Of a stretch of 64,000 nt of DNA, positions 47,733 to 63,892 are shown piece after piece (position 1 is the first letter of the stretch; the number at the start of each line of letters is the position of its first letter). Origin of the DNA: Mucilaginibacter tundrae (GTDB lineage Bacteria; Bacteroidota; Bacteroidia; Sphingobacteriales; Sphingobacteriaceae); contig NZ_JACCBZ010000002.1 of assembly GCF_013408825.1 (NCBI RefSeq), positions 186,001-250,000 on the forward strand, given 5' to 3'. The notes beneath the pieces are model-generated. The model ran no database searches and had not been told where the DNA came from. It saw nothing but the letters and a program-made list of their open reading frames with translations. The translations under genes were made by a program, and so were the position numbers.

Positions 47733-48460
47733 TTAACGCCCGTATAAATTGAACAGATACCAAACGTTAACGGCCTGTGTTTGGTATTTTTAAAGCCTGC
47801 TTTCTGCAGTAAACCTATAAATTTTTCGCCATCGGGAAAAGCGGCAACTGACTCCGGCAAATAGCTGTACGCCCTTGCATCCTTGGAGAACAGCTTGCCA
47901 ATGCCCGGCGTTACGTAGCTGAAATAGAAATTATATAACTGTTTTACAGGGAATGCCTTGGGTTTAGAGAACTCCAAAATCACAGCCTTGCCGCCTGATT
48001 TTAACACACGGTGAATATCAGCTAAACCAACTTCCAGGTTCTCGAAATTACGAACACCGTAGGCAATAGTTACCGCATCAAATTCATTAGCTTCGAAAGG
48101 TAATTTTTCGGAGTCGCCTAATTTGATCTCGAATTTATCACTTAGGTGGCGTTTGGTTATTTTTTGCTGCGCGATGTCGAGCATACCTTGCGAAATATCA
48201 ACACCAACAATTTTCTTTGGGTTGAGGATCTTCAAGGCTTCGAAAGCGAAATCGCCGGTGCCGGTGGCAACATCCAATATTTGCTGGGGATTATCCTTTT
48301 TCAACTCGTTAATGGCTTTTTTACGCCAGATGATATCGATGCCCAGTGATAAAAAATGGTTCAGGAAATCGTAGGTTTTGGATATATTGTTGAACATATC
48401 GGCTACCTGTGTTTTTTTAGCAACCTCGTTATCCTGATAGGGTGTTATTATTTCGCTCAT
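47729..48460 (-). CDS. ubiE: Demethylmenaquinone methyltransferase (UbiE/MenG)
   Basis: The 243-residue SAM-dependent enzyme carries out the last methylation of menaquinone synthesis, the quinone used by complex I here. Family motifs are YDFLNHFLSLGIDIIWRKKA, ILDVATGTGDFAFEAL (SAM binding), VGVDISQGMLDIA, VTIAYGVRNFENLEVGL and ILEFSKPKAFPVKQLYNFYF. The length is typical. Confidence 0.95.
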   Translation of the reverse strand: MSEIITPYQDNEVAKKTQVADMFNNISKTYDFLNHFLSLGIDIIWRKKAINELKKDNPQQILDVATGTGDFAFEALKILNPKKIVGVDISQGMLDIAQQKITKRHLSDKFEIKLGDSEKLPFEANEFDAVTIAYGVRNFENLEVGLADIHRVLKSGGKAVILEFSKPKAFPVKQLYNFYFSYVTPGIGKLFSKDARAYSYLPESVAAFPDGEKFIGLLQKAGFKNTKHRPLTFGICSIYTGVK

Positions 48461-48491
48461 ATTTTTAGATGGGCAAAGATAGGTATTTATG

Positions 48492-48572
48492 GTATATAGT
48501 TAATGGTTAATGGTTCATGGTCTTAGCGCTTTTATGAAAGAGAGCTATGAACTATGAACCATTAACTATATA
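48492..48572. repeat. AT-rich hairpin repeat (GTATATAGTTAATGGTT arms)
   Basis: GTATATAGTTAATGGTT at the left pairs with AACCATTAACTATATAC at the right (perfect 17-bp arms) around a loop of about 45 bp. The right arm abuts the reconstructed stop of the frameshifted glyoxalase. It is related to the repeat at 43958. Confidence 0.7.
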
Positions 48573-49060
48573 CTATTTAGCCAATTCAAGCAAGCCTTTT
48601 GCATCCAGCGCACGGGTATACATAGTTAATTTACCCTCGGCGTCTAATGGCCAATCTTCTTTGGGGCGATCCCAATATAGTTCTACGCCATTTTTATCGG
48701 GATCATTAAATAGATGGCTTCGGATACGCCGTGGTCGGATGCGCCGGTGATTGGGTATTTGGCATCAATTAAGCGTTGGAGAATTACCGCCAGATCTTTT
48801 CTTTCGGGGTAAAGGATGGCGGTATGGTATAGGCCGGGTGCATATTCAGGCGCGGGTGACGCGCCTTTGCTATGCCAAGTATTTAGGCCGATATGATGAT
48901 GATATCCTCCTGCCGAAATGAAAGCAGCCTGATCGCCGTACATAGTCATCACTTCGAAGCCTAATAGTCCGCAGTAAAAGTCGAGTGACTTTTGGATGTC
49001 GCTTACCTTTAGGTGTACGTGGCCGATGCGGGTTTGAGCTGGTATGGTGTAGTTTTCCAT
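48573..49060 (-). pseudogene. VOC/glyoxalase-fold protein gene with a single-base frameshift
   Basis: The open frame from 49060 gives GHVHLKVSDIQKSLDFYCGLLGF, the vicinal-oxygen-chelate fold with a metal-ligand His, but stops at 48683 after 125 residues. Adding one base to the AA/TTTAATG stretch near 48705 continues the protein as YLNDPDKNGVELYWDRPKED and on to a stop at 48573, exactly the usual second metal-site strand and C-terminus of the family. It therefore lacks a metal-ligand strand as written. It is a probable dioxygenase or glyoxalase of unknown substrate. Sequencing error is as likely as true inactivation. Confidence 0.8.
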
Positions 49061-49170
49061 TTTCTTATACTTTTTGGTTCGACTAAAGCTGGTCTTTATT
49101 AATTTATTTCGCCCTTTTAAAATGGGTGGCTATGAATTAGCAATTATAATGTACCATAATAAATCCATAC

Positions 49171-49202
49171 ACAAATATACATGTTTAAACACGTATATTT
49201 GT
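49171..49202. promoter_or_regulatory. 32-bp near-perfect palindrome with outward -7 boxes (VOC/engB divergent region)
   Basis: ACAAATATACATGTTTAAAC plus ACGTATATTTGT reads almost the same on both strands (one mismatched symmetric pair). It contains TATATTTG on the plus strand (49194-49201) and the same box on the minus strand (49179-49172). It looks like an operator overlapping two divergent promoters, one towards the VOC gene and one towards engB. Confidence 0.5.
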
Positions 49203-49286
49203 AATTGTTTAGTAAGGATACTAAGATGAATTAAACAAGCGAAACCCAACTAATCTCTAACCTCTAATTAACTAATCTCTAATTGC

Positions 49287-49294
49287 TATCTTTG
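49287..49294 (+). promoter_or_regulatory. -7 promoter box almost touching the engB start
   Basis: TATCTTTG fits TAnnTTTG and ends only 4 bp before the ATG at 49299. If used, the transcript would start at or next to the start codon (leaderless). Confidence 0.4.
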
Positions 49295-49298
49295 CCCA

Positions 49299-49925
49299 AT
49301 GATCGTTAAAACCGCCGAGTTTATTTGCAGCAACACTCAAATTTCCAAACTGCCGCCGCCGGTTAAAGCTGAATATGCCTTTATCGGGCGGTCGAACGTT
49401 GGAAAATCCAGCCTTATTAATATGCTTGTGCAGAAAAAAGGATTGGCTAAGACTTCGCAAACGCCGGGAAAAACTCAGCTGATCAACCATTTTTTGGTTA
49501 ATGATAGCTGGTATATTGTCGATTTGCCGGGCTATGGTTATGCCCGTGCCTCTAAAAGTAAGAAAGCGGATTGGGATAAGTTTATCCACTCCTACCTTGA
49601 TAAACGTGAAAGTTTGCAATGTGTAATGGTTTTGATCGACAGCCGATTGGAGCCGCAAAAGATAGATCTGGAGTTTTGCAATTGGCTGGGCGAAAAGGGC
49701 TTGTCGTTTGTTTTGGTGTTTACCAAGGCTGATAAACAGTCGAGTATTAAAACTGACCAAAATGTGGCGAGGTTTAAGAAGGCTTTATTAGAAACTTTTG
49801 AGGAAGCGCCGGGATATTATATTACATCGGCGGAAACGATGATGGGGAGGGATGAGATTTTGGGGTTTATTGGTGGGATTAATAGTGGGTTTGTGGTACC
49901 GAAAGTTTGGGGATCAGAGGAGTAA
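49299..49925 (+). CDS. engB: Ribosome biogenesis GTPase EngB (YsxC/YihA)
   Basis: The 208-residue GTPase is needed for large ribosomal subunit assembly. G1 is GRSNVGKSSLINML, followed by TSQTPGKTQLINHF (G2), VDLPGYGYA (G3), TKADK (G4) and an SAE (G5) motif. Length and order are typical. An antisense frame on the other strand is a shadow. Confidence 0.96.
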   Translation: MIVKTAEFICSNTQISKLPPPVKAEYAFIGRSNVGKSSLINMLVQKKGLAKTSQTPGKTQLINHFLVNDSWYIVDLPGYGYARASKSKKADWDKFIHSYLDKRESLQCVMVLIDSRLEPQKIDLEFCNWLGEKGLSFVLVFTKADKQSSIKTDQNVARFKKALLETFEEAPGYYITSAETMMGRDEILGFIGGINSGFVVPKVWGSEE

Positions 49926-49940
49926 AACTTTAAACTATAT

Positions 49941-50325
49941 CATTTCGCCCTCCGGTCGAAATCTTCTGCGGTTGGCAAAGTGGAAATGCAAGCCGGGATT
50001 GGCTTGGCGAAGAAGATTTCTCCCGATGGCTGAAATGATAGGGTGGAGAGAATCAAATAATAAGTATTGTCATTTCGACTGGAAGGAAAAATCTTCTGCG
50101 ATTGGCAAAGTGGAATGCAGGGCGGAATTGCAAGGTGAAGAAGATTTCTCCCGATGGTCGAAATGACAGGGTGGAGAGAATCAAATAATATGTATTGTCA
50201 TTTCGACTGGAAGGAGGAATCTTCTACGATTGGCAAGATGGAAATGCAAGCCGGGATTACCTTGGCGAAGAAGATTTCTCTCTGCGGTCGAAATGACAGG
50301 ATGGAGAAGTCGCAATGACAATAAA
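49941..50325. repeat. Three tandem copies of a ~130-bp hairpin unit
   Basis: Units start at 49941, 50071 and 50199 (130, 128 and about 125 bp). Each begins with CATTTCG(A/C)C followed by an AATCTTCT arm, contains GATTGGCAAAGTGGAA(A)TG, and returns through GAAGAAGATTTCTC to GTCGAAATGA, so each unit is itself a long imperfect hairpin. The first two units end with the same AATCAAATAATA linker. No credible gene lies in this 415-bp spacer between engB and ubiA. Confidence 0.85.
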
Positions 50326-50340
50326 AAGAATAATACAGAA

Positions 50341-51195
50341 ATGAAAAAATATCTATCATTAGTAACATTTACGCATACCATTTTTGCTATGCCTTTTGCT
50401 TTTATTGGCTTTTTTTTGGCGGTGACCACTACGGAATATCGCTTTGACTGGCTGAAATTGGTGATGATGGTTTTTTGTATGGTTTTCGCACGAAACTCGG
50501 CGATGGCATTTAACCGTTATTTGGACAGGGACATCGATGCTAAAAACCCGCGGACTAAACAGCGGGATATCCCTTCGGGCAGGATCAGCGCGAGATCGGC
50601 TTTGACATTTACTATTGTGAATTGTTTGTTGTTTATTGCTACGACTTACTTTATTAATACGCTTTGCTTTTTCCTATCGCCGGTAGCGTTGTTTGTGGTG
50701 CTGGGGTATAGCGCTACAAAGCGTTTTACAGCGCTTTGTCATTTGGTTTTAGGGTTGGGGTTGGCTTTGGCCCCTATCGGCGCTTATTTGGTGGTTACGG
50801 GGCATTTCGCGGCTACTCCGGTGTTCTTCTCATTATCAGTTTTGTGCTGGGTTAGCGGGTTTGATATTATTTATGCTTTGCAGGATATTGATTTTGACGT
50901 GCATGAGCATTTGCACTCTATCCCTGCTTATTTGGGCAAGGTGAATGCGTTGCGCTTATCGACCTTTTTGCATGTACTGTCAGCTTTATTTGTGATTATG
51001 CCGGTATTCTATACACCCGTTGGCATCCCCTATTTTATCGGGATCGCTTTCTTCTGCTCAATGCTGATATACCAGCATTTGCTAGTTAAACCTAACGACC
51101 TGAGCCGTGTTAACTTTGCTTTTATGACCACCAATGGTATTGCCAGTGTTGTTTTCGCTGTGTTTTTTATGCTGGATAGACTTTGGATCCGGTAG
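50341..51195 (+). CDS. UbiA family prenyltransferase
   Basis: The 284-residue membrane protein has about eight to nine helices. The first Asp-rich prenyl-diphosphate motif lies in NSAMAFNRYLDRDIDAKNPRT (about 44-64), and the second in YALQDIDFDVHE (about 180). It attaches a prenyl chain to an aromatic acid in quinone synthesis. The substrate could be 4-hydroxybenzoate or, in a menaquinone organism, the futalosine-route analogue (MqnP-like), and the sequence alone does not decide. The ATG at 50341 (MKKYLSLVTF) is chosen because upstream codons come from the tandem repeat. Confidence 0.88.
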   Translation: MKKYLSLVTFTHTIFAMPFAFIGFFLAVTTTEYRFDWLKLVMMVFCMVFARNSAMAFNRYLDRDIDAKNPRTKQRDIPSGRISARSALTFTIVNCLLFIATTYFINTLCFFLSPVALFVVLGYSATKRFTALCHLVLGLGLALAPIGAYLVVTGHFAATPVFFSLSVLCWVSGFDIIYALQDIDFDVHEHLHSIPAYLGKVNALRLSTFLHVLSALFVIMPVFYTPVGIPYFIGIAFFCSMLIYQHLLVKPNDLSRVNFAFMTTNGIASVVFAVFFMLDRLWIR

Positions 51196-51263
51196 TCATT
51201 GGGTCATTCGCTGCACTGTTATTGGGCTTTGTAGTTTGACAGTTACAAACCCTCATGATCCGC

Positions 51264-51286
51264 GGTTTCAGTTTAAAACTGAAACC
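51264..51286. repeat. 23-bp perfect palindrome between convergent genes
   Basis: GGTTTCAGTTT and AAACTGAAACC flank a single A, an 11-bp perfect stem. It lies between ubiA (plus) and the small membrane gene (minus). There is no clear T-run, so it is a hairpin of uncertain role. Confidence 0.65.
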
Positions 51287-51328
51287 AGTTAAGGGAAAGT
51301 CAAAAGTCAAAAAACCTCCAATCCTCTC

Positions 51329-51523
51329 TTACATTAATTCCTGGTCTTTTTTCTCGTGGTAAGTTTTATAGCAGAGGTATAAAAACAGAATGATAGGGCC
51401 GACATCCAGGGCCCATCTGCCTGTTGTCATTTTGGCGGCGGTGATGGTTACGAGATCAAAAATGAAGACGCCAATGGCGATCATTCCGCCGATAAAATAT
51501 AGATAAACGTATTGTTTGCTCAT
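51329..51523 (-). CDS. Small two-helix membrane protein
   Basis: From the ATG at 51523 the protein is 64 residues: MSKQYVYLYFIGGMIAIGVF, a helix, then a short polar turn, then VGPIILFLYLCYKTYHEK, a second helix with a charged end. The longer reading frame upstream runs into the dispersed repeat at 51555 and is rejected. No family is recognised. It lies downstream of the repeat and of glgB on the same strand. Confidence 0.6.
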   Translation of the reverse strand: MSKQYVYLYFIGGMIAIGVFIFDLVTITAAKMTTGRWALDVGPIILFLYLCYKTYHEKKDQELM

Positions 51524-51554
51524 GGTTGTGTTGCTGTCATTGGTTATTGCCTTT

Positions 51555-51640
51555 GTCATTTTGAGGGACGAAGAATCTTCTTCGATTTGCAAAGCAGAAA
51601 TGCATGTTGCAGAAGATTCTTCGCTGCGCTCAGAATGACA
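51555..51640. repeat. Dispersed palindromic repeat (TCATTTTGA...TCAGAATGA)
   Basis: GTCATTTTGAGGGACGAAGAATC opens the element in two 20-bp-scale arms, and GAAGATTCTTCGCTGCGC followed by TCAGAATGAC closes it. It is the same family as 18445-18532. It lies just downstream of the glgB stop. Confidence 0.75.
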
Positions 51641-51648
51641 ATTGGGGA

Positions 51649-53751
51649 TTATTTTAACTCATACTTTTTAGGCGAATCTTTTACTTTTTTTCTTTTAAAT
51701 ACCGATGCGCCAAGCGGCGGTATGGTGATATTTATTGAATTTTCACGACCATGCCAGCTGATGGCTTCGCTATTTATAGCGTTGTAATTTATGATGCCAC
51801 TGCCCCATAGGTTTTCGGCATCGGAGTTGAAGATTTCTTTCCACTCTCCTGCCTGCGTTACACCTACGCGGAAATCATGGCGGATAACCGGGGTCATGTT
51901 TAGTACTACCACCAGGTCATCATCGGGGTTGTAGCCTTTGCGGGCATATACCAGGATGGAATCATTGGCATTACCGCCGTCGATCCATTCAAAACCAGTA
52001 TAATCGAATCCTTTTTCGTAAAGCGCAGGTTCCGATCTGTACAGTCTATTCAGGGCTTTAACAGTTTCTTTTATACCATTGTGGTTAGGGTATTGCAGTA
52101 CATACCACTCTAATGATCTTTCAAAATTCCACTCTGTCCCCTGGCCGAACTCGGCACCCATGAATAGCAGTTTTGTACCCGGGTGGGTAAACATAAAGCT
52201 ATACAACAAGCGCAGGTTGGCAAATTGCTGCCACTCATCGCCGGGCATTTTGCGCAGCATGGAGCCTTTGCCGTAAACCACTTCATCATGCGAGAACGGC
52301 AGCATAAAGTTTTCGGTAAAGGCATAGATCAAACTGAAGGTGATCACGTTGTGGTGATATTTTCGGTTGATCGGATCTTCCTCAAAATAATTGATGGAAT
52401 CGTGCATCCAGCCCATCATCCATTTCATACCGAAACCTAAACCGCCTGTATAAACCGGGCGACTAACGCCTGTGAATGAAGTTGATTCCTCAGCAATTGT
52501 TTGTGTGTCGGGGAAGTGACTGTAAACCGCTTCGTTAAATTCTTTGAGGAATGATATAGCTTCTAAATTCTCGTTTCCGCCGTAAATATTGGCTTCCCAT
52601 TCACCGTGCTTACGGGAATAATCAAGGTACAGCATGGATGCTACCGCATCAACACGCAAACCATCAACATGATAACGATCAAGCCAAAACAACGCGTTAC
52701 TAATTAAAAACGCACGCACCTCGTTACGGCCGTAGTTGAATATGTATGATTTCCAATCGGGGTGAAACCCTTTACGCATATCGGCATGCTCGTAAAGATG
52801 CGTGCCGTCGAAATTATACAGCGCGTGCGCGTCGCCGGGGAAATGTGAGGGAACCCAGTCCAAAATTACGCCGATGCCAGCTTTGTGGAGTTCTTCTACC
52901 AAAAACATCAGATCCTGCGGAGAACCATAGCGGCAAGATGCCGCGTAGAAACCACTGATCTGATAGCCCCAGCTTGGATAATATGGGTGCTCCATTATCG
53001 GCATGAACTCTACATGGGTAAAGCCCATCTCGGTGATATATGGCACTAACTTTTCCGCTAATTCGCGATAGGTCAAAAATTCATCGGGGCTCTCTGGGTT
53101 GCGTGCCCATGAGCCTACGTGCATTTCGTAAACAGAATATGGTTTATCTAAAGCATTGTGCTGGTAACGGGTAGCCATCCAGTCCTGATCTTTCCATTCG
53201 TAAAAGGTATCCACAACTATAGATGCGGTGCTCGGCGGTAGTTCCCAACGCAGGGCGAATGGATCGCTTTTCTCCAGTTCCTCACCGCTTGAAGACTTTA
53301 TAAAGTATTTGTAAACTTCGCCAACACCAATATGCGGGATAAAGCCTTCCCAAATACCTGAAGAATCCCAGCGTGGGTTTAGTTTGTGTGTGCCCCTATC
53401 CCAATAATTAAAGTTACCGGTAACCGCCACATATTGTGCATTCGGCGCCCAAACAGCGAAATAAGTGCCAACCACGCCTTTATACTCAACTACATGTGAG
53501 CCGAATTTTTCATAAAGCTTGTAGTGCTTACCCGATTGAAACAGGCTAACATCAAATTCAGTAAAACGGCTATATGGCTCAACCCGCTCTAAAGTTGTAG
53601 TTTCAACAGTTGCTGGTCCGGTTACTTTTTTTGCAGATGCCTTTTTTACAGGCTTTTCGGTTGTGGTTTGGGCTTTAGCTATAACAGGCTTTTTAGGAAC
53701 TGCTTTTTTTACTGCTTCTTCGCTTGATGGTTCAACTTTCTTTTTGGCCAT
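51649..53751 (-). CDS. glgB: 1,4-alpha-glucan branching enzyme (GH13) with Lys/Ala-rich N-terminal extension
   Basis: The 700-residue enzyme makes alpha-1,6 branches in glycogen. The N-terminal CBM48 domain (about 90-185, YFAVWAPNAQYVAVTGNFN) precedes the GH13 barrel. Catalytic residues are visible as Asp in GLRVDAVASMLYLDYSR, Glu in TIAEESTSF, and Asp in MLPFSHDEVVYGKGS. Residues 1-50 are an added low-complexity tail rich in K, A, P, T and E (for example AKKKVEPSSEEAVKKAVPKK), resembling a histone-like tail. The gene belongs with the GH31 and pgmB/GH65 genes of alpha-glucan metabolism. Confidence 0.95.
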   Translation of the reverse strand: MAKKKVEPSSEEAVKKAVPKKPVIAKAQTTTEKPVKKASAKKVTGPATVETTTLERVEPYSRFTEFDVSLFQSGKHYKLYEKFGSHVVEYKGVVGTYFAVWAPNAQYVAVTGNFNYWDRGTHKLNPRWDSSGIWEGFIPHIGVGEVYKYFIKSSSGEELEKSDPFALRWELPPSTASIVVDTFYEWKDQDWMATRYQHNALDKPYSVYEMHVGSWARNPESPDEFLTYRELAEKLVPYITEMGFTHVEFMPIMEHPYYPSWGYQISGFYAASCRYGSPQDLMFLVEELHKAGIGVILDWVPSHFPGDAHALYNFDGTHLYEHADMRKGFHPDWKSYIFNYGRNEVRAFLISNALFWLDRYHVDGLRVDAVASMLYLDYSRKHGEWEANIYGGNENLEAISFLKEFNEAVYSHFPDTQTIAEESTSFTGVSRPVYTGGLGFGMKWMMGWMHDSINYFEEDPINRKYHHNVITFSLIYAFTENFMLPFSHDEVVYGKGSMLRKMPGDEWQQFANLRLLYSFMFTHPGTKLLFMGAEFGQGTEWNFERSLEWYVLQYPNHNGIKETVKALNRLYRSEPALYEKGFDYTGFEWIDGGNANDSILVYARKGYNPDDDLVVVLNMTPVIRHDFRVGVTQAGEWKEIFNSDAENLWGSGIINYNAINSEAISWHGRENSINITIPPLGASVFKRKKVKDSPKKYELK

Positions 53752-53850
53752 ATTGGTATTGCCTTGCGGCTTAGTTTAAGTAGATATTTACATATTGCGT
53801 TTGCAGGCAATTGTAATGCAATGTATGATTTAATTGGTAATAACAACAAA

Positions 53851-53893
53851 AACAGAAGGGTGTGTTATTTATTTCAAAAACACACCCTTTTAA
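53851..53893. terminator. Terminator-like hairpin upstream of glgB
   Basis: AAGGGTGTGT (53856-53865) pairs with ACACACCCTT (53880-53889), and on the minus strand the stem is followed by TCTGTTTTTG. Before the transposon inserted, it would have lain shortly after the GH31 gene, in the right orientation to terminate it. Confidence 0.6.
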
Positions 53894-53939
53894 GCTGAAT
53901 AATCTTTTAGGTCGATTAACTTCGCTTGTTTGGCGAAGA

Positions 53940-53982
53940 AACACACCCCTGCTGCCGCACTTTCCGGCGCGCCCCCTCTCAA
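53940..53982. repeat. Left half of a CCCCTCTC...GAGGGG REP-like element split by the transposon
   Basis: AACACACCCCTGCTGCCGC and then GCCCCCTCTCAA match the intact copy at 30812. The right half, GAGGGGAACTGG, is found at 57310 after the inserted element. Joined, they give CCCCTCTCAAGAGGGG. Confidence 0.75.
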
Positions 53983-54015
53983 GGGTAACTATATACAAGT
54001 TGGGACAGGACAAAG
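53983..54015 (+). repeat. Left terminal inverted repeat of the IS1595-type element
   Basis: The end begins GGGTAACTATATA, then CA, then AGTTGGGACA, and after GGAC continues AAAGTTAA. It is the partner of 57275-57303. Confidence 0.85.
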
Positions 54016-54037
54016 TTAAAAATATTTAAGATACAGC

Positions 54038-54637
54038 CTATGACCCCATACTATCGGACTTTGGTTCGTAGTGTGGGGGGCGTAGGACTACAACACGAGA
54101 TTGCGTCATCCTTATTATGACCGTACTGCATTTTTTAATTGTCATTAGAATTGAATTAATTTTTTCCTCATCATACCATTCAATCCGAGAGTTGGCACTA
54201 AACTTTTGTAATCCAATATGGGTTGTTGCTCGGTCTATAGCGTCTTGATTTGTGCAAACTAAGTTGTGGGCGAAGCTATTCCTTTCATACATTACAGTAT
54301 TCATATCTTTTTTAAAACTACGATGTACTTTTTTGCCAAATTCTGGTCGCTGAATTTTTATTAGTACATCAAATAGTTTTCTTTTACCGTCCAAGCTAAT
54401 CCTATTAGCGCCCAAAATAATATTTGAGAATTCTTTGACTTTATCTAAACTATCACAAAAGTAAGTCGCTATATAAATATCTAAAAGCCTATCCAAAGAA
54501 GAAACAGCATCAATAATTTTTCCGCGATATACAATAGACGTTGCTTTAATATTTTCTATTGTCGGGGCTTGTCGTTCGTGTCGTGCAATTTCGTTTTGTA
54601 AATACTCCAATTGCTTTTCTAATTCATCCTTTGTCAT
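54038..54637 (-). CDS. HEPN-like protein, transposon passenger
   Basis: The 199-residue, mostly helical protein starts with a short coiled coil (about 1-22). A helix reading RGKIIDAVSSLDRLLDIYIA (about 38-57) follows, and later the motif R119-NSFA-H124, an R-x4-H sequence of the kind that marks HEPN domains. HEPN proteins are often RNA-cutting toxins or defence effectors, but catalytically silent members exist. No partner antitoxin (MNT-type) is seen beside it. It lies 55 bp inside the left end and diverges from the transposase gene. The fold assignment is from motif and helix pattern only. Confidence 0.55.
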   Translation of the reverse strand: MTKDELEKQLEYLQNEIARHERQAPTIENIKATSIVYRGKIIDAVSSLDRLLDIYIATYFCDSLDKVKEFSNIILGANRISLDGKRKLFDVLIKIQRPEFGKKVHRSFKKDMNTVMYERNSFAHNLVCTNQDAIDRATTHIGLQKFSANSRIEWYDEEKINSILMTIKKCSTVIIRMTQSRVVVLRPPHYEPKSDSMGS

Positions 54638-54709
54638 TGTGATTTTAGTTTAGTCCCGCAATCTAATTAATTATTTTAAAATAAATTAGTAAGCTATTGG
54701 GACAAGTCT

Positions 54710-54717
54710 TATATTTG
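54710..54717 (+). promoter_or_regulatory. -7 box of the transposase gene
   Basis: TATATTTG matches TAnnTTTG exactly and lies 20 bp before the ATG at 54738. A TTGGGA stretch just upstream is too close to be a clear -33 box. Confidence 0.45.
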
Positions 54718-54737
54718 TATAACAAAACGGTAAGACG

Positions 54738-55661
54738 ATGACAACTCAATTTAAAAGCCTATTACAAGTGTTAGATTATTTCAGAGATGAAAAGACTTGC
54801 ACTACATACTTAGCTAACTCACGCTGGTGTAATACACCGTCTTGTCCTCATTGTGGTAACGTTGGTGCTTATGTAACTAACAGAGGCTTTAAATGTAAAG
54901 CAAAAGAGTGCCATAAAAAATTTACCGTTACAACTGGTACTGTATTTGAAAACACTAAAATTGAATTGCGTTACTGGTTTGCCGCTATCTACTTAGCAAC
55001 TGCACACAAAAAAGGTATTAGCAGCCTGCAATTAAGCCGTGATCTAAACATAACCCAAAAAACTGCATGGTTTTTATTACACCGCATACGTGAAATGCTG
55101 ACTAACAACGCTCCGCAAATGTTAGAGGGTACAGTTGAGGTTGACGAGACTTATATCGGTGGCAAACACCGTAACAAGCATTCTAAGGCACGTAAATTAT
55201 TGAATGAAAAAGGTACAGGCGCAATAAACAAAACGCCCGTAGTGGCAATGTTACAGAGAGATGGAAACATCGTAACAATTGTAACGCCATTGGCTAACGG
55301 CGAAAGTATCAAACCTTTCATCTACGCTAATGTAAAACCTGGAACTACGGTAATAACTGACGGGTTCGGTGCTTATAAAGGCTTAAATAAAGATTACACA
55401 CACGAAGTTGTTATGCACTCTGAAAACGAGTATGTAAGACCGGGAAACATTCACACCAATTCAATCGAGGGCTTTTGGTCACAATTGAAAAGAGGTATCA
55501 TTGGCACATTTCACCAAGTTAGCCCGAAACACTTACACCGCTATTGCCACGAATTCGGCTACAAATACAATACACGTAAAGTATTAGATACTGTACGTTT
55601 TGAGGATGCTATTAAAAATGTTAACGGTAAACGTTTGACTTATGCTAAACTAATTGCTTAA
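54738..55661 (+). CDS. IS1595 family (ISXO2-like) transposase
   Basis: The 307-residue protein has an N-terminal zinc-ribbon (CPHCGNVGAY, then CKAKEC; four Cys at about 31-57) and a helix-turn-helix (SSLQLSRDLNITQKTAWFLL). The ISXO2-like catalytic core carries the acidic residues in VDETYIGG (about 138) and TDGFGAY (about 213), followed by NSIEGFWSQLKRG, which supplies the Asn/Lys of the DDNK pattern. No frameshift or stop is present, so the enzyme looks intact. It mobilises the element bounded at 53983 and 57303. Confidence 0.92.
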   Translation: MTTQFKSLLQVLDYFRDEKTCTTYLANSRWCNTPSCPHCGNVGAYVTNRGFKCKAKECHKKFTVTTGTVFENTKIELRYWFAAIYLATAHKKGISSLQLSRDLNITQKTAWFLLHRIREMLTNNAPQMLEGTVEVDETYIGGKHRNKHSKARKLLNEKGTGAINKTPVVAMLQRDGNIVTIVTPLANGESIKPFIYANVKPGTTVITDGFGAYKGLNKDYTHEVVMHSENEYVRPGNIHTNSIEGFWSQLKRGIIGTFHQVSPKHLHRYCHEFGYKYNTRKVLDTVRFEDAIKNVNGKRLTYAKLIA

Positions 55662-55669
55662 TTTTGAAT

Positions 55670-55816
55670 ATGGCAAAGAAAAAAACAGAACCAAAGCCAC
55701 GTGCTGAAAAGTATGAAACTAAATTGGCTATTAATGGAACGTTAGAAGATGTGTTAAAGGTTTCTTTTTTGGGAAAACCAAATCAAATTAAAAGCAACGA
55801 CTCTAAAAAAAGTTAA
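55670..55816 (+). CDS. 48-residue ORF directly after the transposase
   Basis: An ATG 8 bp after the transposase stop opens a 48-residue frame: MAKKKTEPKPRAEKYETKLA, then INGTLEDVLKVSFLGKP, then a Lys/Ser tail. The basic start and the KYE-K-x-NGT-x-x-DVLKVS block look like a genuine small protein, not random sequence. The close spacing suggests it is made with the transposase. No function is known to me; it could be an accessory transposition factor (speculation). Confidence 0.55.
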   Translation: MAKKKTEPKPRAEKYETKLAINGTLEDVLKVSFLGKPNQIKSNDSKKS

Positions 55817-55876
55817 TTCAGTAAGCAATGTTAACAAACTTAATTTAATCTGATTTTTTTAATAGCTAAACTTTTA

Positions 55877-55884
55877 TATCTTTG
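55877..55884 (+). promoter_or_regulatory. -7 box inside the transposon upstream of the 59-aa ORF
   Basis: TATCTTTG fits TAnnTTTG in an AT-rich stretch about 105 bp before the ATG at 55989. No matching -33 box is clear. Confidence 0.35.
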
Positions 55885-55988
55885 CGACCCGCAAAATTTT
55901 ACAAAAATATTTGTATTTTTAATTTTACAATTTGTATGTTTGTTGCGTTGAAACTATAAATATTGTATACAAAGATATTTTTGCTCAT

Positions 55989-56168
55989 ATGAAAAATTAC
56001 ACTCACATTGCGAAAATATACGGGTTCAAATGTTATTTTAACGAAAACACTGGAGAAATTGAAGGTGTAAATTGGATTGAAAATAAACTTATTGAATTGT
56101 TTGTATGGATTGATGTAACCTTCACATCAAATGATGCGTTTAAAATTGAAATACTTGAAAAACTTTAA
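55989..56168 (+). CDS. 59-residue hypothetical protein, transposon passenger
   Basis: From the ATG at 55989 the frame reads MKNYTHIAKIYGFKCYFNEN, then TGEIEGVNWIENKLIELF, an ordered alternation of hydrophobic and polar residues. An upstream start at 55932 would add a less convincing Cys-rich leader. A putative -7 box lies upstream. No family is recognised and no function is proposed. Confidence 0.45.
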   Translation: MKNYTHIAKIYGFKCYFNENTGEIEGVNWIENKLIELFVWIDVTFTSNDAFKIEILEKL

Positions 56169-56248
56169 TTTTATTGGATTGTAGTTGTAAAAGGAGGGTT
56201 GGAGAGACTAAATCCCCAACCGACCTTATAGTGATTAAAAAAACTCAG

Positions 56249-56502
56249 CCCGACCGCTTATTTTTTAATTACTATCTTAAAGGGTTTGCCGTTTGCCCTT
56301 CTTATGACTTTACCGTTTTTCAACGTAATAGTCATTCGGAAAATGACAGTTCTTTCGTCTTTTTTGCTTATGTCTGACATATAGAAACTTTTACATGCAT
56401 CCTTTGGTACATGTTTTCAGATTTCACGCTCCCAATCTGATTAGTAGGGATTACTTAACACTTTTAGTCTAAATTTTTGTCCCGACCAGTTAAGCGGTCG
56501 GG
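56249..56502. repeat. 12-bp inverted repeats flanking a 40-aa ORF
   Basis: CCCGACCGCTTA at 56249-56260 is the exact complement of TAAGCGGTCGGG at 56491-56502. The right copy is also part of a local hairpin, GTCCCGACC...GGTCGGGAC (56479-56504). The left copy contains the stop codon of the 40-aa ORF. Confidence 0.65.
56258..56380 (-). CDS. 40-residue basic ORF inside the transposon
   Basis: On the minus strand an ATG at 56380 reads MSDISKKDERTVIFRMTITL, then KNGKVIRRANGKPFKIVIKK and a stop. The K-D-E-R-T-V-I-F-R..ITLKNGK block resembles, from memory, small Bacteroidetes proteins found near mobile DNA. An eight-T run follows 10-20 bp after the stop. It is too short for certainty, and the function is unknown. 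Confidence 0.45.
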   Translation of the reverse strand: MSDISKKDERTVIFRMTITLKNGKVIRRANGKPFKIVIKK

Positions 56503-56840
56503 ACAATGGCTTTACATTCACAATTTTTCATTGAAACAAAATAGGTGTCAACAAAAAGGACGTTCATATTAGCCGACATAAGCGTTGTAAATATATAAAA
56601 TCTCTTTTAAAATCAAAAATATTTTTTTCTTGTATCCCATACTACCTAACTATTATCATTCGTCACAGGGCTTAAAAATGGGTATTAATGGGGTGTAGAT
56701 ATTTTTCCACACTATTATGACTTTTATTCTTATATTAACTCATTGGCGAAAAAAGCTACATTTTCAACCGAAAATTACGGCTTGCTTTAATTCTATACAT
56801 TAAATCGTAAATTCCTTACATTCGCTTAAACCTTTTCAAG
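56381..56840. other. Transposon internal stretch without a convincing gene
   Basis: These 460 bp are AT-rich. Apart from the hairpin at 56479-56504 I see no supported gene, promoter or repeat. Confidence 0.4.
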
Positions 56841-57263
56841 ATGAAAAAACTACTGCTTGCCTTATTGCTATTGCCTATATTATGCCATGCTCAAAAGTTT
56901 ATCGGCATGGATAAAGCTACTTTGATGAATTACCAAACTAATGATGGTGCTTATTTTGACGGTGTAAAATATACAACTGATGGGATAGCATTTTTAGAAT
57001 ATAGTTACTCATTAAAAAAAATGGAAACTAATGACATATCTCTTGAGGCATTCTATTTAAATGACCAAAATATTTGTACATCCTATAAGATAGCATTTAG
57101 AAGTCAAAACTCTTTAGAATACGTAGTAAACCATTACAAGACAGATACAAACTTTGTTAAAATACCTGAAAAGTTTGGATGGTACAATGTTAAGATAGAT
57201 TGTACGGTTCAAATAGAACTTAAAGATAGTGGGGGCTATATTTTATCGTGCGCTAAACGCTAA
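56841..57263 (+). CDS. Secreted 140-residue hypothetical protein, transposon passenger
   Basis: The protein has a clean signal peptide (MKKLLLALLLLPILCHAQ, cleavage after HA or HAQ) and a mature domain of about 122 residues with alternating strands (DGIAFLEYSYSLKKM; ICTSYKIAFRS; YNVKIDCTVQIELK). Four cysteines (one in the signal, the others at about 76, 119 and 137) are spaced without a known pattern. It ends 12 bp before the matching part of the right inverted repeat, so it travels with the element. Family and function are not recognised. Confidence 0.7.
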   Translation: MKKLLLALLLLPILCHAQKFIGMDKATLMNYQTNDGAYFDGVKYTTDGIAFLEYSYSLKKMETNDISLEAFYLNDQNICTSYKIAFRSQNSLEYVVNHYKTDTNFVKIPEKFGWYNVKIDCTVQIELKDSGGYILSCAKR

Positions 57264-57274
57264 TTTTTAAATTA

Positions 57275-57303
57275 ACTTTGTCCCAACTCCTATATAGTTA
57301 CCC
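57275..57303 (-). repeat. Right terminal inverted repeat of the IS1595-type element
   Basis: The sequence AACTTTGTCCCAACT, then CC, then TATATAGTTACCC is the inverted partner of the left end at 53983. The CCC at 57301-57303 overlaps the target duplication. Confidence 0.85.
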
Positions 57304-57327
57304 TCTCAAGAGGGGAACTGGCTTCGT

Positions 57328-59787
57328 TTATCCTTTTAGAATTTCGATATGTTTAAAATTTTTGCTGAAGTTAAACTCGAGGTTTTTGTTTTTGTCGATG
57401 GAGTATTCGGTTATCTCTTTGCCGTCGGCTACAATTTTATAGGGTTTGAACGGCAGGCCCGCGATATTGAAGTGATAACCGTCGTAACGTGGGGTATATA
57501 AACCTTCCATACTTTGTTCAATGGTCATTTTCTTCTCATCGCCGCTTACAACAAACTTTTTCTCCAAGTAGATATCCTGTTCGTAAGCGAAGGTTTCGCC
57601 GTAATCTTCAAACAGGAAGGAATTCACCTCGTAGTCGCTGTAATAAATATTCAGTTTCACCTCGGTTATTTCTTTTTCGCCAACGTATTGCATTACGGGG
57701 TATTCGGGGATAACGGAACCAGCTTTTACAAAAATAGGGATAGTTTCCAGCGGTGTTAGCACGTTTACTTCTTTTCCGCCTTCGGCACTTTCGTTTGTCC
57801 AGAAGTTGTACCATTTACCTTTTGGCAAGTATACATTACGGTTGGTTTGTCCGGGCTCTAATACCGGGCAAACTAATATTTTATCGCCATAGGTAAACTC
57901 ATCCTGGCGGAAATGATTCAGCAACACATCCTGCTCCTGCATTACTATCGGCCTTAATATAGGGAAGCCATAACGGTGATGCTCCCAGAATGTGGAGTAT
58001 AGGTATGGGATGAGCCTATAACGCAGCTCGATAAACTTGCGGTTGATGGCGGTGAATGGCTCGCCGAAGCTCCATGGCTCGCGTTCCTTGGTATCACCGG
58101 CAGAGTGCGCGCGCATAAATGGGGAAAACGTTCCCATCTGAATCCAGCGGGTAAACAGCTCGCCATCAGGCTCGCCGCTAAAGCCACCGATATCTGTTCC
58201 GCAGAAAGAGATACCTGAAATGGATAAGCGCTGGCATTGGATGTTACCTAATTTTAGGTGTTCCCAGCTGGCTACGTTGTCACCCGTCCACACGGACGAA
58301 AAGCGTTGCACACCCGAGTAACCCGCCCGGGTAATGGTGAAAGGGCGTTTATTTTTCATGATAGCGCGCAAGCCCTCGTAGGTAGCGCGCACCATTTGCA
58401 TTCCATAAATATTGTGAGCCTTACGGTGCGATCCGCGATGCCCGTCATACTGGTGGCGAACATCGTCAGGGAAAGTGCCTGCACCAAAAACGGCCGGCTC
58501 GTTCATATCGTTCCAAACACCGGCAACGCCTATTTTCACCAATTCATCAAACAAACCACCCCACCAGGTACGAACCTCCGGGTTAGTAAAATCAGGAAAC
58601 TGACAACGGCCCGGCCACACATGGCCTTCCATAAAATAATCATCGCTACGGCGGCAGAAATAATGGTTCTTTTTACCCTCTTTAAATACTTCGTAGTTAT
58701 CGTCCACACGGATACCGGGGTCAATAATTACGACGGTTTTAAAACCATCAGCCGCTAATTCGGCTATCATTTTTTTAGGGTTAGGGAAATATTTGTTATT
58801 CCAGGTAAAACAGCGATAACCATCCATGTAATCAATATCTAAATAGATACCATCGCATGGGATTTTATTTTCGCGGAAGCCATTGGTGATCTTTTTAACC
58901 TTTGCCTCGGGGTAATAGCTCCAGCGGCATTGGTGATAGCCCAGTGCCCAAAGTGGTGGCATTGGGTGAGTACCGGTTAACAAATGATAGCTTTTTACCA
59001 CATCCATCATATGCGGACCGTGGATATAATAGTATTGCAACTCTCCGCCATCTGCCCAAAAACTGGTTTTGGTTTTATCCTCGGCACCGAAATCAAACTG
59101 AGCCTTGAAGGTATTGTCAAAGAAAATACCGTGTGCTATATCCTCATTCAAACTGATATAGAACGGGATGCTGCGGTACAGCGGATCCTGGTTCCAGGCA
59201 AATGAATAGGCGTCGGTGTTCCAGTTTTTTAAGCGTTTACCCCGAAGGTTAAATTCGGTTGGTTTATCACCCAAGCCGAAAAAGCTTTCTTCCGCCTGGC
59301 AAGTTTTTGTGCAGAACACGTAATACCCACCAAACTTTACGTTTTCTTCCCAATGCATCGGCACTGCATCGGCACTGGTGACATGGTTATTTTTATCAGA
59401 GAATGAAATAAAGAAATCTTTTTTGCGGATGTGGCAGTTTACTACCCTTGTTGCCACTAAAAATTCAGATTCTGTTTCTAACAGTTCAAATTCAGGTGCC
59501 CTGTGCTCTAATTTAGGAACGGCATAGGAAAACTCCTCTAAGAAAACGCCATGTGGCGCCAGGCGAACCCGGATGATCTCATCGGTAACAACGGTTACTT
59601 CAACTTTTGCATCGCCATCACTAAAGTAGATTTTATTCCCCGTTTTTTCGGCATTATTGGGTATGCCGAGGTATTTTTTTATAACAGGCTTTATATCGGC
59701 AGCAGGATTATTTACGTGATGAAATGGTTCATCCTCTTCAACTAACCTGTTGATTAACAAATCTGTATTAAGTATATTTTCTTCCAT
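57328..59787 (-). CDS. Glycoside hydrolase family 31 alpha-glucosidase
   Basis: The 819-residue cytoplasmic enzyme shows GH31 motifs: ESFFGLGDKPTEFNLRGKRL (N-terminal beta-sandwich/galactose-mutarotase-like part), DGIYLDIDYMDGYRCFTW, the catalytic nucleophile Asp in GVWNDMNEPAVFG (about 427) and the acid/base segment RPFTITRAGYSGVQRF with WTGDN. No signal peptide is seen. It should release glucose from maltose/isomaltose-type alpha-glucans, in keeping with glgB, pgmB and GH65 nearby. The transposon inserted 24 bp beyond its stop. Confidence 0.94.
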   Translation of the reverse strand: MEENILNTDLLINRLVEEDEPFHHVNNPAADIKPVIKKYLGIPNNAEKTGNKIYFSDGDAKVEVTVVTDEIIRVRLAPHGVFLEEFSYAVPKLEHRAPEFELLETESEFLVATRVVNCHIRKKDFFISFSDKNNHVTSADAVPMHWEENVKFGGYYVFCTKTCQAEESFFGLGDKPTEFNLRGKRLKNWNTDAYSFAWNQDPLYRSIPFYISLNEDIAHGIFFDNTFKAQFDFGAEDKTKTSFWADGGELQYYYIHGPHMMDVVKSYHLLTGTHPMPPLWALGYHQCRWSYYPEAKVKKITNGFRENKIPCDGIYLDIDYMDGYRCFTWNNKYFPNPKKMIAELAADGFKTVVIIDPGIRVDDNYEVFKEGKKNHYFCRRSDDYFMEGHVWPGRCQFPDFTNPEVRTWWGGLFDELVKIGVAGVWNDMNEPAVFGAGTFPDDVRHQYDGHRGSHRKAHNIYGMQMVRATYEGLRAIMKNKRPFTITRAGYSGVQRFSSVWTGDNVASWEHLKLGNIQCQRLSISGISFCGTDIGGFSGEPDGELFTRWIQMGTFSPFMRAHSAGDTKEREPWSFGEPFTAINRKFIELRYRLIPYLYSTFWEHHRYGFPILRPIVMQEQDVLLNHFRQDEFTYGDKILVCPVLEPGQTNRNVYLPKGKWYNFWTNESAEGGKEVNVLTPLETIPIFVKAGSVIPEYPVMQYVGEKEITEVKLNIYYSDYEVNSFLFEDYGETFAYEQDIYLEKKFVVSGDEKKMTIEQSMEGLYTPRYDGYHFNIAGLPFKPYKIVADGKEITEYSIDKNKNLEFNFSKNFKHIEILKG

Positions 59788-59899
59788 TTAAATCAATTAG
59801 CTACAATAAACACGTTTTAGCATATAAGTTATACGCAATATACGAATTATCTGTTTTAAATGGTAGGGCTATAATTGTGCCAAGGGGTGGTGAGTGCGT

Positions 59900-60125
59900 G
59901 GATTTAGATTTGCCTATTGTATAACTTGTCTATGGGTATCGCTAACGCTATGTTTTTCTTTCTTTTGGCCGTCAAAAGAAAGAAACAAAGAAAACTCTCG
60001 GCTACGTTCTGATCCTACTTTGGGTTGTGCTTGTACTTTGACTTGTGGTTGCCGGATCAGCCCTGATGCCGATTGGGAACGGTGAACTTCAGGTTGTGCT
60101 TTATCTTTTTGGAACGTCATTGCTG
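59900..60125. repeat. ~225-bp dispersed repeat, copy A
   Basis: The block shared with 62724-62955 includes TTCTTTCTTTTGGCCGTC followed by AAAAGAAAG, GTTCTGATCCTACTTTGG, GGTTGCCGGATCAGCCCT and GAACGGTGAAC. Short open frames inside it are not supported. The remaining spacer to 60317 holds only the usp terminator and a GC-rich stretch (60180-60245) without a gene. Confidence 0.8.
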
Positions 60126-60249
60126 TAAGGACGGTAAAGTTTTAGATGAAAGAGAGTTGCTTTTGCGCGCTTCGTTGACTCACCCGACTTTCTCCGTTGG
60201 CCAACGGATGGTCGACCCTCTCTCCGCCTGCGGCGCATAGGGGGTGAGC

Positions 60250-60290
60250 TGCATTAAATAAATAAAGCCGCTTTTGGCGGCTTTAAGGTT
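60250..60290 (-). terminator. Rho-independent terminator after the usp gene
   Basis: AAAGCCGC (60264-60271) pairs with GCGGCTTT (60277-60284), and on the minus strand the stem runs into TTTATTTATTT. It lies about 30 bp after the usp stop. Confidence 0.78.
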
Positions 60291-60317
60291 GTGAAATTGT
60301 ATAAAACTTAGGTTGGG

Positions 60318-61139
60318 TTATTCGTGCAGTACAAGGATAGCCTTTACTGTTTTGTTCATGATCTGGTTTACGGTGCTGCGGTTAAACAGGCGATAAACAA
60401 TGTTGTGGTGGTGTTTTACCAGGCACAAAATATCGGTATTATTATCCTCCACAAACTTCATAATACCATTTAATGGGCGGCTATCAGTTATATAATTAAA
60501 ATCCAGTTTAGCATTTTTAATTAAGTCCCGTAGCTTACTTTCGCCGGCTTCAATGTATTTTGAGTCCTTTCTTTCGGCAACATACAATACTTTCATGTTT
60601 TTCGATCCGAAAGCTTCAACCATCTCATTCAAAGCATTTACATCATCGGCAGAAAGCCTGGTTTCATAATCGGTTGCCAGTGTAATTACCGGCACTCCTG
60701 AAAACTTACTTTCCAGCGGGATGATAAGTGTCGGTATTTTTACTGCCGAAACAATGGTGCTTACGTTACTGCCTACAATGCCCGCAATGCCGGTTGACCC
60801 CGTAAGACCTAAAGTTAGTACCTCCACGTGGTGCTGGTCAATATACTTGTTTATCACATTCTTCAGGAATCCTACGCCGCAAACGGTGGTTACTTCAATA
60901 TCTTTAAACTCATCGTGGTCGGTAAATTTTGCTACCCAATCTTTTAGCGCCTGGCGTTTATTGTTGTAGTAGTCATCGATAAAGATCGCGTTGTAGGTGT
61001 TATTGTTGATTCCTTCGGTGGGCCCGATGGCATGTATGGCGCATACTTCCATGTTTAATACTTTAGCCAAGTGCATAGCATATTCCATGGCATTGGCCGC
61101 GCTGTTTGAAAAATCTGTAGCAACAAGTATTTGTTTCAT
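60318..61139 (-). CDS. Universal stress protein, two tandem domains
   Basis: The 273-residue protein has two USP folds. The first (about 1-140) opens KQILVATDFSNSAANAMEYA and contains the ATP-binding pattern GLTGSTGIAGIVGSNVSTIV. The second (about 150-273) is degenerate (ITLATDYETRLSADDVNAL; DILCLVKHHHNIVYRLF). Such proteins bind ATP and help under stress by unclear means. It lies 36 bp after the phosphate transporter gene and is probably co-transcribed with it. Confidence 0.92.
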   Translation of the reverse strand: MKQILVATDFSNSAANAMEYAMHLAKVLNMEVCAIHAIGPTEGINNNTYNAIFIDDYYNNKRQALKDWVAKFTDHDEFKDIEVTTVCGVGFLKNVINKYIDQHHVEVLTLGLTGSTGIAGIVGSNVSTIVSAVKIPTLIIPLESKFSGVPVITLATDYETRLSADDVNALNEMVEAFGSKNMKVLYVAERKDSKYIEAGESKLRDLIKNAKLDFNYITDSRPLNGIMKFVEDNNTDILCLVKHHHNIVYRLFNRSTVNQIMNKTVKAILVLHE

Positions 61140-61175
61140 TTTTTCAATATTTTTAAGTGAATTTGCTTTAAAGCA

Positions 61176-62594
61176 TTAAATAAATAAGTGGAAGAACAGG
61201 AATAATAAAAATGCTAAAATTATAGCAACCGGCAAAGTTAATACCCATGCTAAAGCTATATTTTTTAACGTTTTACTATTTAGATTGCCCGCTCCACCTG
61301 ATGCCAGCATAGAGCCGGCAATACCGCTTGATAGTACGTGTGTGGTACTTACCGGTAAACCAAAGCTACTGCTTAAGCCGATGGTTGCCGCGGCCACCAG
61401 TTCAGAACTTGCGCCCTGAGCATAGTTCAAATGCTGGTTACCTATTTTTTCGCCGATGGTTACTACGATACGTTTCCAGCCTACCATGGTACCAATACCT
61501 AGTGAGATAGAGATGGTAGCGATAACCCAGATTGGCGCGAAATCGGTAAGGCCGATAATATCTTTTGATGCGGAAGTTACCGTGGCCCTGTCTTTATTAA
61601 CCCATTTGATGTCTTTTGCGGCTAACAGCGCGGTTATGCCGCTGCTTACGGTCTTGATTTGCTTGCGGAACTTGTAGGTTTTATTCGTATCCGTTTTGCT
61701 GGCTAATTGTATTTTGGTTTTTTCGATAGCGCTATCGGTTTTAAGCAATAAGGCTTTGCTTGCCGCGCCGGTAGCGTTGGTATGCATAAATACCTGCTCG
61801 GTTTTATTTAATGAAGCAAGTATTTTATCATTATGGATCGCATGGTTCACTGCGAATTTAGCGGGAAGGAACGCGATCAGGATCAGCATTAACAGGCCAA
61901 CACCTTTTTGTCCGTCGTTACTGCCGTGGAAGAAGCTTACCAGCGTACAGGTGGTGATCAGTAATAAACGGATGAGTATTGGCGGGGTATCTTCGTCACC
62001 TTGCGGAATGTGGAACAGGGCCTTCCATTTAATCACGTGGATCAGCAAATACATTAATCCCGCTGCAGCGCCGAAACCAATCAGTGGTGAAAGGATCAGC
62101 GATAAACCAATTTCTTTTGCTTTATCCCAGTTTACACCGGCACCGCCGTAGTACCAGGTAAAGGCTATACTGGCACCGATCATGGCGCCAATTAAGGTAT
62201 GTGAACTTGAACACGGGATACCTAAGTACCATGTACCTAAATTCCATACTATAGAGGCAAGCAATACTGACAATACCATGCAGGCACCGACACTCACGGG
62301 CAACTTCATTAATTCATCTAAGGGTAATAGCTTTAAGATACCCATGGCTACTGCTACGCCACCTAAAAATACGCCGAGGAAATTCCAGGTACCCGACCAC
62401 GGAATTGCATAAATCGGTTTTAATGCTTTGGTGTAAATAACCGTAGCCACAGCGTTTGCAGTATCGTGAAAACCATTAACAAACTCAAAGCCGACAACCG
62501 CCAGTAAACAAATTGCAAAAACAATTAGCAGCGATGTGCTTAGGTTAACCTCGCCAAGTAATGGTAGGGTAATAGCACTTAATACATGGAGCAT
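61176..62594 (-). CDS. PiT family inorganic phosphate transporter
   Basis: The 472-residue membrane protein has the two family signatures: FEFVNGFHDTANAVATVIY near the N-terminus and FHGSNDGQKGVGLLMLIL in the middle, with about ten helices split by a cytoplasmic loop (about 260-350) rich in K, T and S. It imports phosphate with protons or cations. The usp gene follows. A TTGATTA...TAATCAA inverted repeat (62624-62643) lies 30 bp upstream of the start and could be an operator. Confidence 0.93.
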   Translation of the reverse strand: MLHVLSAITLPLLGEVNLSTSLLIVFAICLLAVVGFEFVNGFHDTANAVATVIYTKALKPIYAIPWSGTWNFLGVFLGGVAVAMGILKLLPLDELMKLPVSVGACMVLSVLLASIVWNLGTWYLGIPCSSSHTLIGAMIGASIAFTWYYGGAGVNWDKAKEIGLSLILSPLIGFGAAAGLMYLLIHVIKWKALFHIPQGDEDTPPILIRLLLITTCTLVSFFHGSNDGQKGVGLLMLILIAFLPAKFAVNHAIHNDKILASLNKTEQVFMHTNATGAASKALLLKTDSAIEKTKIQLASKTDTNKTYKFRKQIKTVSSGITALLAAKDIKWVNKDRATVTSASKDIIGLTDFAPIWVIATISISLGIGTMVGWKRIVVTIGEKIGNQHLNYAQGASSELVAAATIGLSSSFGLPVSTTHVLSSGIAGSMLASGGAGNLNSKTLKNIALAWVLTLPVAIILAFLLFLFFHLFI

Positions 62595-62623
62595 AATTTG
62601 ATTTTTTGGGTGAGCAATAGTGA

Positions 62624-62643
62624 TTGATTAGTTTATTAATCAA
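62624..62643. promoter_or_regulatory. Possible operator upstream of the phosphate transporter
   Basis: TTGATTA, GTTTAT, TAATCAA form a 7-bp inverted repeat 30-50 bp upstream of the start codon. No known consensus is matched, so this is only a candidate. Confidence 0.3.
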
Positions 62644-62723
62644 AGAAATCGATATCAGGCTTATTTCACGAAAAAATCAGATTATCAAATTGTTACGTTA
62701 TTCTGTAGTGTATGTTAATGGTG

Positions 62724-62955
62724 GGTTTGGATTTGCTTGTTGTATACTTGTCTCGGGTATCGCTGCGCTAAGCGTTACTTTCTTTTGACCGTCAAAAGAA
62801 AGTAACCAAAGAAAACTCCCGGCTGCGTTCTGATCCTACTTTGGCTTGTGCTTTTAATTGGGCCTGTGGTTGCCGGATCAGCCCTAATGCCGATTTGGAA
62901 CGGTGAACGGTTGGTTTGTGCTTTACTTGGTTGCTTTTCTTTTTGTCATTGCAAT
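62724..62955. repeat. ~225-bp dispersed repeat, copy B
   Basis: It is in the same orientation as copy A (59900-60125) and shares its order of blocks. In this copy GTTACTTTCTTTTGAC and GTCAAAAGAAAGTAAC (62774-62806) form a perfect 16-bp stem with a one-base loop. The rest of the 520-bp PiT-pgmB spacer shows no supported gene. Confidence 0.8.
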
Positions 62956-63116
62956 GCGGTAGGTGGTGACTGGTGCATACCTCGCTCCGGCACCCGCCAC
63001 CCCGCTCCTACTTATAAACTAACCGTTGAACAATCCCACCGAATCAATATTTGTAAATTAACTTAGACGGGGTTATGAAAAAACGTTACCTTAGTGTCAA
63101 TTGTACATATAGATAA

Positions 63117-63883: not shown

Positions 63884-63892
63884 TATAGGGTT

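Follow-up and report, generated by a model that had tools for sequence, protein, structure and literature searches.

Small transposons with a single transposase gene are usually thought to carry nothing. What, then, are four or more further genes doing between the ends of an element of the IS1595 family, and do they belong to it? We addressed this question for an element in a stretch of 64,000 nucleotides from Mucilaginibacter tundrae (contig NZ_JACCBZ010000002.1), in the following called the window, which a first-pass annotation had described as containing a passenger-carrying transposon. Our data argue, with a probability of roughly 0.72, for a passenger-carrying transposon of the IS1595 family that is autonomous, resides in a genome of Mucilaginibacter type and combines a core with a variable slot, and in which a HEPN-like gene would have the role of an effector.

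Reading the ends base by base places the element at 53984-57302 (3,319 bp, GGTAACTATATA...TATATAGTTACC). Its 24-bp terminal inverted repeats, GGTAACTATATACAAGTTGGGACA on the left (53984-54007, plus strand) and the inverse of GGTAACTATATAGGAGTTGGGACA on the right (57279-57302, minus strand), agree at 22 of 24 positions; further in, the left arm has a small insertion. Both ends adjoin an exact 8-bp target duplication, CTCTCAAG (53976-53983 and 57303-57310). What the first-pass annotation had reported, namely matching ends, a flank found on both sides and an uninterrupted transposase gene, is all present, with the register moved by one base: seven bases of the duplication given as CCTCTCAA were right, the additional C being, at the right-hand copy, the element's own last base, and the 23 matches counted in the first 25 positions become 22/24 after this correction. 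In 12 mononucleotide shuffles of the region 53500-57800, the best inverted repeat reached 18-20 of 24 positions versus 22 in the real sequence, and no shuffled repeat with at least 16/24 was accompanied by an exact 8-bp duplication, of which the real region has one. The G+C content is 0.334 within the element versus 0.432 in the nearby flanks (45001-53983 and 57303-64000). That we are dealing with a real transposon is hardly in doubt.

The transposase gene (54738-55661, plus strand) has an intact frame of 307 aa and encodes an IS1595-family (ISXO2-like) enzyme, as judged by matches above cutoff to DDE_Tnp_IS1595 (E 2.4e-43), NF033547 (E 2.5e-63) and, for the N-terminal zinc finger, Zn_ribbon_IS1595 (PF12760, E 3.8e-08). 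The residues D136, D208 and E244, which we take to be the catalytic acidic residues, are invariant in 15/15 transposases.

The orthologous site is empty in the congener G064, where the joined flanks align continuously at 74%; a strain of this kind was what the first-pass annotation had proposed to look for. In two further genomes (G071 and G098) the element is also absent at the orthologous site, and the alignments there are split by extra repeat DNA. Only one full-length match to the element was found in its own genome. As target the element used a near-palindrome, CCCCTCTC[A/G]AGAGGGG, present at 11 places in this genome at 0-1 mismatch (14 rows, with three self-complementary places listed in both orientations; one place is the element's right junction). 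An interspersed repeat (53939-53983 and, beyond the element, 57303-57315) ends in this target in the form CCCCTCTCAAGAGGGG, which is completed at 57311-57315. Of this longer repeat, 5 additional copies were found in the same genome, and it is frequent in the genus. The exact duplication, the open core genes and the unoccupied site in G064 support an intact and fairly recent passenger-carrying insertion, as had been claimed, and the window element is a genuine, cargo-carrying IS1595 transposon.

Is the cargo a peculiarity of this one copy? Among 149 genomes of the genus, a DNA search gave matches in 56, and the end pattern, with at most 2 mismatches allowed, was found in 52, none of the rows showing a control match. 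Eighteen elements, each with both ends located, served as comparison set. Exact 8-bp duplications surround 14 of them and L072 agrees at 7/8, while L069 and L081 have no exact duplication and L050 runs to a contig end. An element of 4,182 bp lies on contig C13 of G124. The DNA homology among the elements mostly extends from less than 100 bp before the transposase gene to the end of a micro-gene that we call MIC, with the exceptions of a gene named 'ITD' shared by L045, L046 and L072, the HEPN gene shared by L069 and L070, and a few shorter overlaps. At E 1e-3, hardly any protein outside the core clusters with another; exceptions are the ITD trio, a single SocA/Panacea pair and two small clusters whose frames overlap the core. 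Beyond the genus, the order HEPN, transposase, MIC is found in L255 within an exact duplication, and in Dyadobacter the loci L082 and L083 combine a transposase with MIC, likewise with exact duplications. More distant IS1595 transposases, all below 60% identity, occur in plasmid records. A fixed core with a variable slot is very probable on these data. As the comparison shows, elements of this type consist of a fixed block, made up of a divergent promoter region of roughly 70 bp, the transposase gene and MIC and usually preceded by a divergent HEPN-like gene, and of a right-hand slot whose content is different in nearly every copy.

As to the choice of target, 11 of 29 element ends, a list picked and ordered by hand and not a random sample, adjoin a CTCTC-like site and most others AT-rich sites, and several elements use the interspersed repeat. 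A second target type is seen in L046, L047 and L061, which lie in different genomes and have similar AT-rich left flanks (...TTTACAAAtGTCA followed by AGTATTTT or AATATATT).

Within the core, MIC encodes 48 aa (55670-55816, plus strand) and is conserved; by profile search it lies just downstream of the transposase gene in 18/18 compared elements. On the other side, the HEPN-like gene (199 aa, 54038-54637, minus strand) is divergent from the transposase gene. A divergent HEPN gene stands in this place in 13 of the 18 elements, the copy of L060 being broken into two frames; in the other five, the ITD gene takes its place (three elements) or neither is present (two). The divergent promoter region between the two genes (54638-54737) contains TTGGGACAAG at 54697-54706, a repeat of the inner part of the ends. 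In 75-bp upstream windows, 15 of 17 elements have GGGAC/GTCCC, a piece of the end repeat, in one orientation or the other at a distance of 22-54 bp from the start of the transposase gene, versus 438 of 9,797 control windows; the elements are related and therefore not independent. At both ends, the transposase would bind the GTTGGGACA portion and move whatever DNA stands between them, and the same motif upstream of its own gene would allow it to repress the shared divergent promoter. Such putative self-repression is the simplest reading of the upstream end motif.

We consider it likely that the gene upstream of the transposase encodes a HEPN domain. R119, A123 and H124 of an RN..AH-type motif are invariant in 17/17 aligned HEPN-like proteins, and in a larger alignment the R and the H are present in 46/46 rows, which fits R-x(4-6)-H. 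The model of the window protein is all-helical plus a hairpin (pLDDT 89.2). A structure search (Foldseek) gave no match at E <= 0.001 and a PDB sequence search none at E <= 1, and no curated HEPN profile scored above cutoff; sub-threshold matches came only from other members of the alignment, and six of the eight found with PADLOC are named HEPN, Cas13 or Cas13-ApeA. A search of plasmid and phage records with the protein returned nothing informative. The protein is probably an RNase effector within the element's module, and for a toxin or defence role we see about even odds. Acting through RNA cleavage, in the manner of a toxin or of abortive infection, it might help the element to persist or to pay its keep.

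The remaining genes between the ends are this copy's variable cargo, namely a 59-aa protein (55989-56168, plus strand), a 40-aa protein whose gene faces it (56258-56380, minus strand) and a 140-aa protein (56841-57263, plus strand), for which an N-terminal signal-peptide-like stretch was read by eye. The first two are conserved as a pair in 5 other genomes of the genus, four of which are without detected ends of the window-element type. One of these copies lies within another candidate IS1595 element (L064) with weak ends (15/22) and the duplication GTTATAAT. In another locus (L062:6537-6912) the pair stands beside replication-type genes that by eye resemble a prophage, and no IS1595 ends were found there; searches of viral contigs with the 59-aa protein and with a protein P0002 gave nothing informative. 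Of the three microproteins that had been proposed, those of 48 and 59 aa are supported by conservation. In the third place, the plus-strand frame at 56174-56377 gained no support and was rejected because the conserved frame is that of the 40-aa protein on the opposite strand.

One could argue that all this is an ordinary IS1595 insertion sequence with trapped chance DNA, in which the extra frames are functionless debris. The 140-aa protein matched nothing except itself, and the HEPN-like protein of the window has few close relatives (six including itself), which would fit such an origin. The HEPN and MIC genes recur in place, however, and far fewer non-synonymous than synonymous differences were found in five pairs of 59-aa genes, in two pairs of 40-aa genes and also in the MIC genes. 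This alternative was already disfavoured by a wider survey, in which inverted ends with exact duplications were called de novo and filtered for at least 18/24 matching positions, G or C as first base and a length below 5 kb (L057 and the duplicate L223 were left out, and L191 and L220 were set by hand). The 74 duplication-bounded elements kept are 1,887-4,911 bp long (median 3,074.5), and 74/74 hold at least one mechanically called open reading frame of at least 60 aa besides the core genes, a count in which the IS1-like transposase of L220 (see below) was scored as cargo and some end pairs may be wrong. Because the loci were collected by way of the best transposase matches and of HEPN places, this result describes the clade and not the whole family. 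For this clade it rules out mostly transposase-only elements, so that the premise of the first-pass annotation, most such elements being about 1 kb with a transposase only, fails here. In addition, the combination of the same boundaries with no passengers, which had been named as fatal to a cargo interpretation, was not seen among the 18 compared elements; internal genes without the ends, named likewise, do occur, in relatives that are not close copies, and this does not undo the element. Taken together, we regard mere debris as highly improbable. Two short stretches of the same end type, L225:2501-2923 (423 bp) and L227:4717-5770 (1,054 bp), have exact duplications and no transposase match.

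What the slot can hold is best seen in the window element's own genome, which harbors two further elements of the same end type (three in total). The first, an IS1595 element of 4,205 bp on contig C8 (L004:3008-7212, duplication TTTCAAGA), carries homologues of PD-T4-9_A and PD-T4-9_C together with a SecB-like protein; the middle gene of 88 aa had no match in PADLOC. This PD-T4-9-like set may be of the CmdTAC type. The second, on contig C3 (L191:3372-6573, 3,202 bp, duplication TCATTTAA), is without a transposase match and encodes RnlA and RnlB domains above the Pfam cutoffs. The likeness to PD-T4-9 and RnlA/RnlB belongs to these sister elements and not to the window element. Across the 51 proteins of the genus set, which include three ITD and three window proteins, Pfam detected two with SocA/Panacea and one each with Fic and with Beta protein, besides weaker unrelated matches, and PADLOC detected PDC-M59A, PDC-M59B, PD-Lambda-2_C and others in one member each. 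Like the HEPN protein, the toxin-antitoxin and anti-phage genes of the sister elements may aid persistence or pay for their keep.

Several points qualify our preferred reading. The data do not demonstrate that defence genes in general are enriched in the cargo: 140 open reading frames each were drawn, matched in length, from 226 cargo and 654 flanking frames of up to 600 aa, and after removal of one pair (the IS1-like transposase of L220 and its match) PADLOC assigned 72 families to 139 cargo frames versus 67 to 139 flanking frames, with 25 families of each group listed. Since PADLOC does not separate cargo from flanks, we claim examples and not enrichment. Pfam gave 23 families for the cargo frames, many of them HTH, SocA/Panacea, RnlA, Fic, PIN, AIPR or restriction by our own grouping, and 65 for the flanking frames, where the 25 listed are by the same grouping mostly household families and also include TIR_2 and HSDR_N_2. 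HEPN identity shows no relation to that between the transposases (Spearman 0.007 for 78 pairs that are not independent of each other), as in the window element and L060 with 28% identity for HEPN versus 91% for the transposase. It is tempting to read every such difference as module swapping, but synonymous sites of these two transposases are near saturation (pS 0.76), so that fast divergence may explain much of the mismatch and this reading is weakened. Exchange of the HEPN gene is better supported by two pairs of elements than by the overall mismatch. L069 and L070, from the same genome, share 81% HEPN and 67% transposase identity, and L049 and L220 have 67% identical HEPN genes, the one beside an IS1595 transposase and the other beside an unrelated IS1-like one. 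The latter element (L220:4625-7161, 2,537 bp, ends 21/24, duplication CAATTAGT) has its HEPN gene divergent from a 305-aa protein that gave no IS1595 match and is presumably an IS1-type transposase.

The HEPN family is not confined to elements and is often free-standing, and cargo likewise exists apart from them. Of its 45 genes in the genus (47 places, two genes each being split in two), 13 belong to the main elements, two to the duplication-bounded L193 and L196 with IS1595 transposases and one to L220, whereas for 29 the examined stretch contains neither an IS1595 nor an IS1-like transposase. Near six of these lone genes there is an end of at least 20/22 (L054, L059, L192, L205, L206, L214); for the other 23, a few of them on short contigs, no end of this quality was found, and they may be decayed elements or may have an independent way of spreading. 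Transposase-less genes of L199, L200, L055, L194, L054 and L214 form pairs of 78-89% identity in which DNA similarity can be detected over hardly anything beyond the gene itself, which does not settle spread as a cassette because neutral flanks are hard to align at that distance. Beside 18 lone-HEPN stretches, only one tRNA gene was found (in L200).

These data also bear on the possibility that the HEPN-like gene is a transposition accessory, which tunes transposition via the shared divergent promoter with MIC as a second accessory. The fixed position and orientation of the gene wherever an element has it (13/18) and the conservation of the promoter block although the HEPN sequence differs are in favor of such a function. 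Five elements without the gene, the 29 lone copies, its company with an unrelated transposase and the independence of its identity from that of the transposase argue the other way, and we consider an accessory role rather unlikely. Still less likely is that HEPN and MIC are a toxin-antitoxin pair, with MIC as the antitoxin beyond the transposase, so that loss of the element poisons the cell. MIC accompanies the core throughout the compared set, in L059 and L205 the two genes stand back to back with no transposase match, and L089 has them side by side, in divergent orientation, next to a transposase. MIC is present without HEPN in five of the 18 elements and in L057, however, and lone HEPN genes mostly lack MIC, so that the two are not a strict pair. 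We retain an effector encoded by a cargo-carrying transposon as the preferred reading. A bolder version of it is at best tentative: the RNase-type HEPN effector would be an integral and exchangeable part of the transposition module, sitting in a fixed slot on the shared promoter and moving between IS1595 and IS1-like backbones, where it enforces maintenance or excludes phages and rival elements, while toxin-antitoxin and anti-phage systems would travel between related bacteria in the right-hand slot.

The clade resembles a delivery system, in which a constant engine, often accompanied by a putative effector gene, is combined with a slot of changing contents, and the ends and the MIC gene provide two handles for finding unnamed cargo. 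Passenger-bearing members of the IS1595 family were reportedly described by Siguier et al. in 2009. In our literature searches, which covered titles and abstract openings and subscription papers thinly, the architecture of a HEPN/MIC core with a variable slot was not found; the kind of element is known, and this core with its slot is the new part. IS1595 elements usually have a single transposase gene, and the N-terminal zinc finger is found in all groups but IS1016 (PMC8101967). The window element shares with the ISXO2-like insertion sequences described there the transposase domain, the zinc ribbon, the inverted ends and the 8-bp duplication, and its group differs from them by the HEPN/MIC core, further cargo and passengers that change between close relatives (PMC8101967). 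Tn3-family transposons carrying toxin-antitoxin pairs, in one case HEPN/MNT, offer a second comparison (PMC7157771). Their transposase is unrelated and no resolvase was seen in the window element; in contrast to HEPN/MNT, no known antitoxin partner such as MNT was identified, and the HEPN family is different as far as tested. What the Tn3-family transposons and the present group have in common are effector-type genes that occupy a fixed place in the transposition module and are exchanged there, while other passengers vary (PMC7157771). Should the HEPN protein indeed guard the element or the cell, this would be a compact case of a transposon that brings along a gene for its maintenance or for immunity, in parallel to the toxin-antitoxin cases of Tn3.

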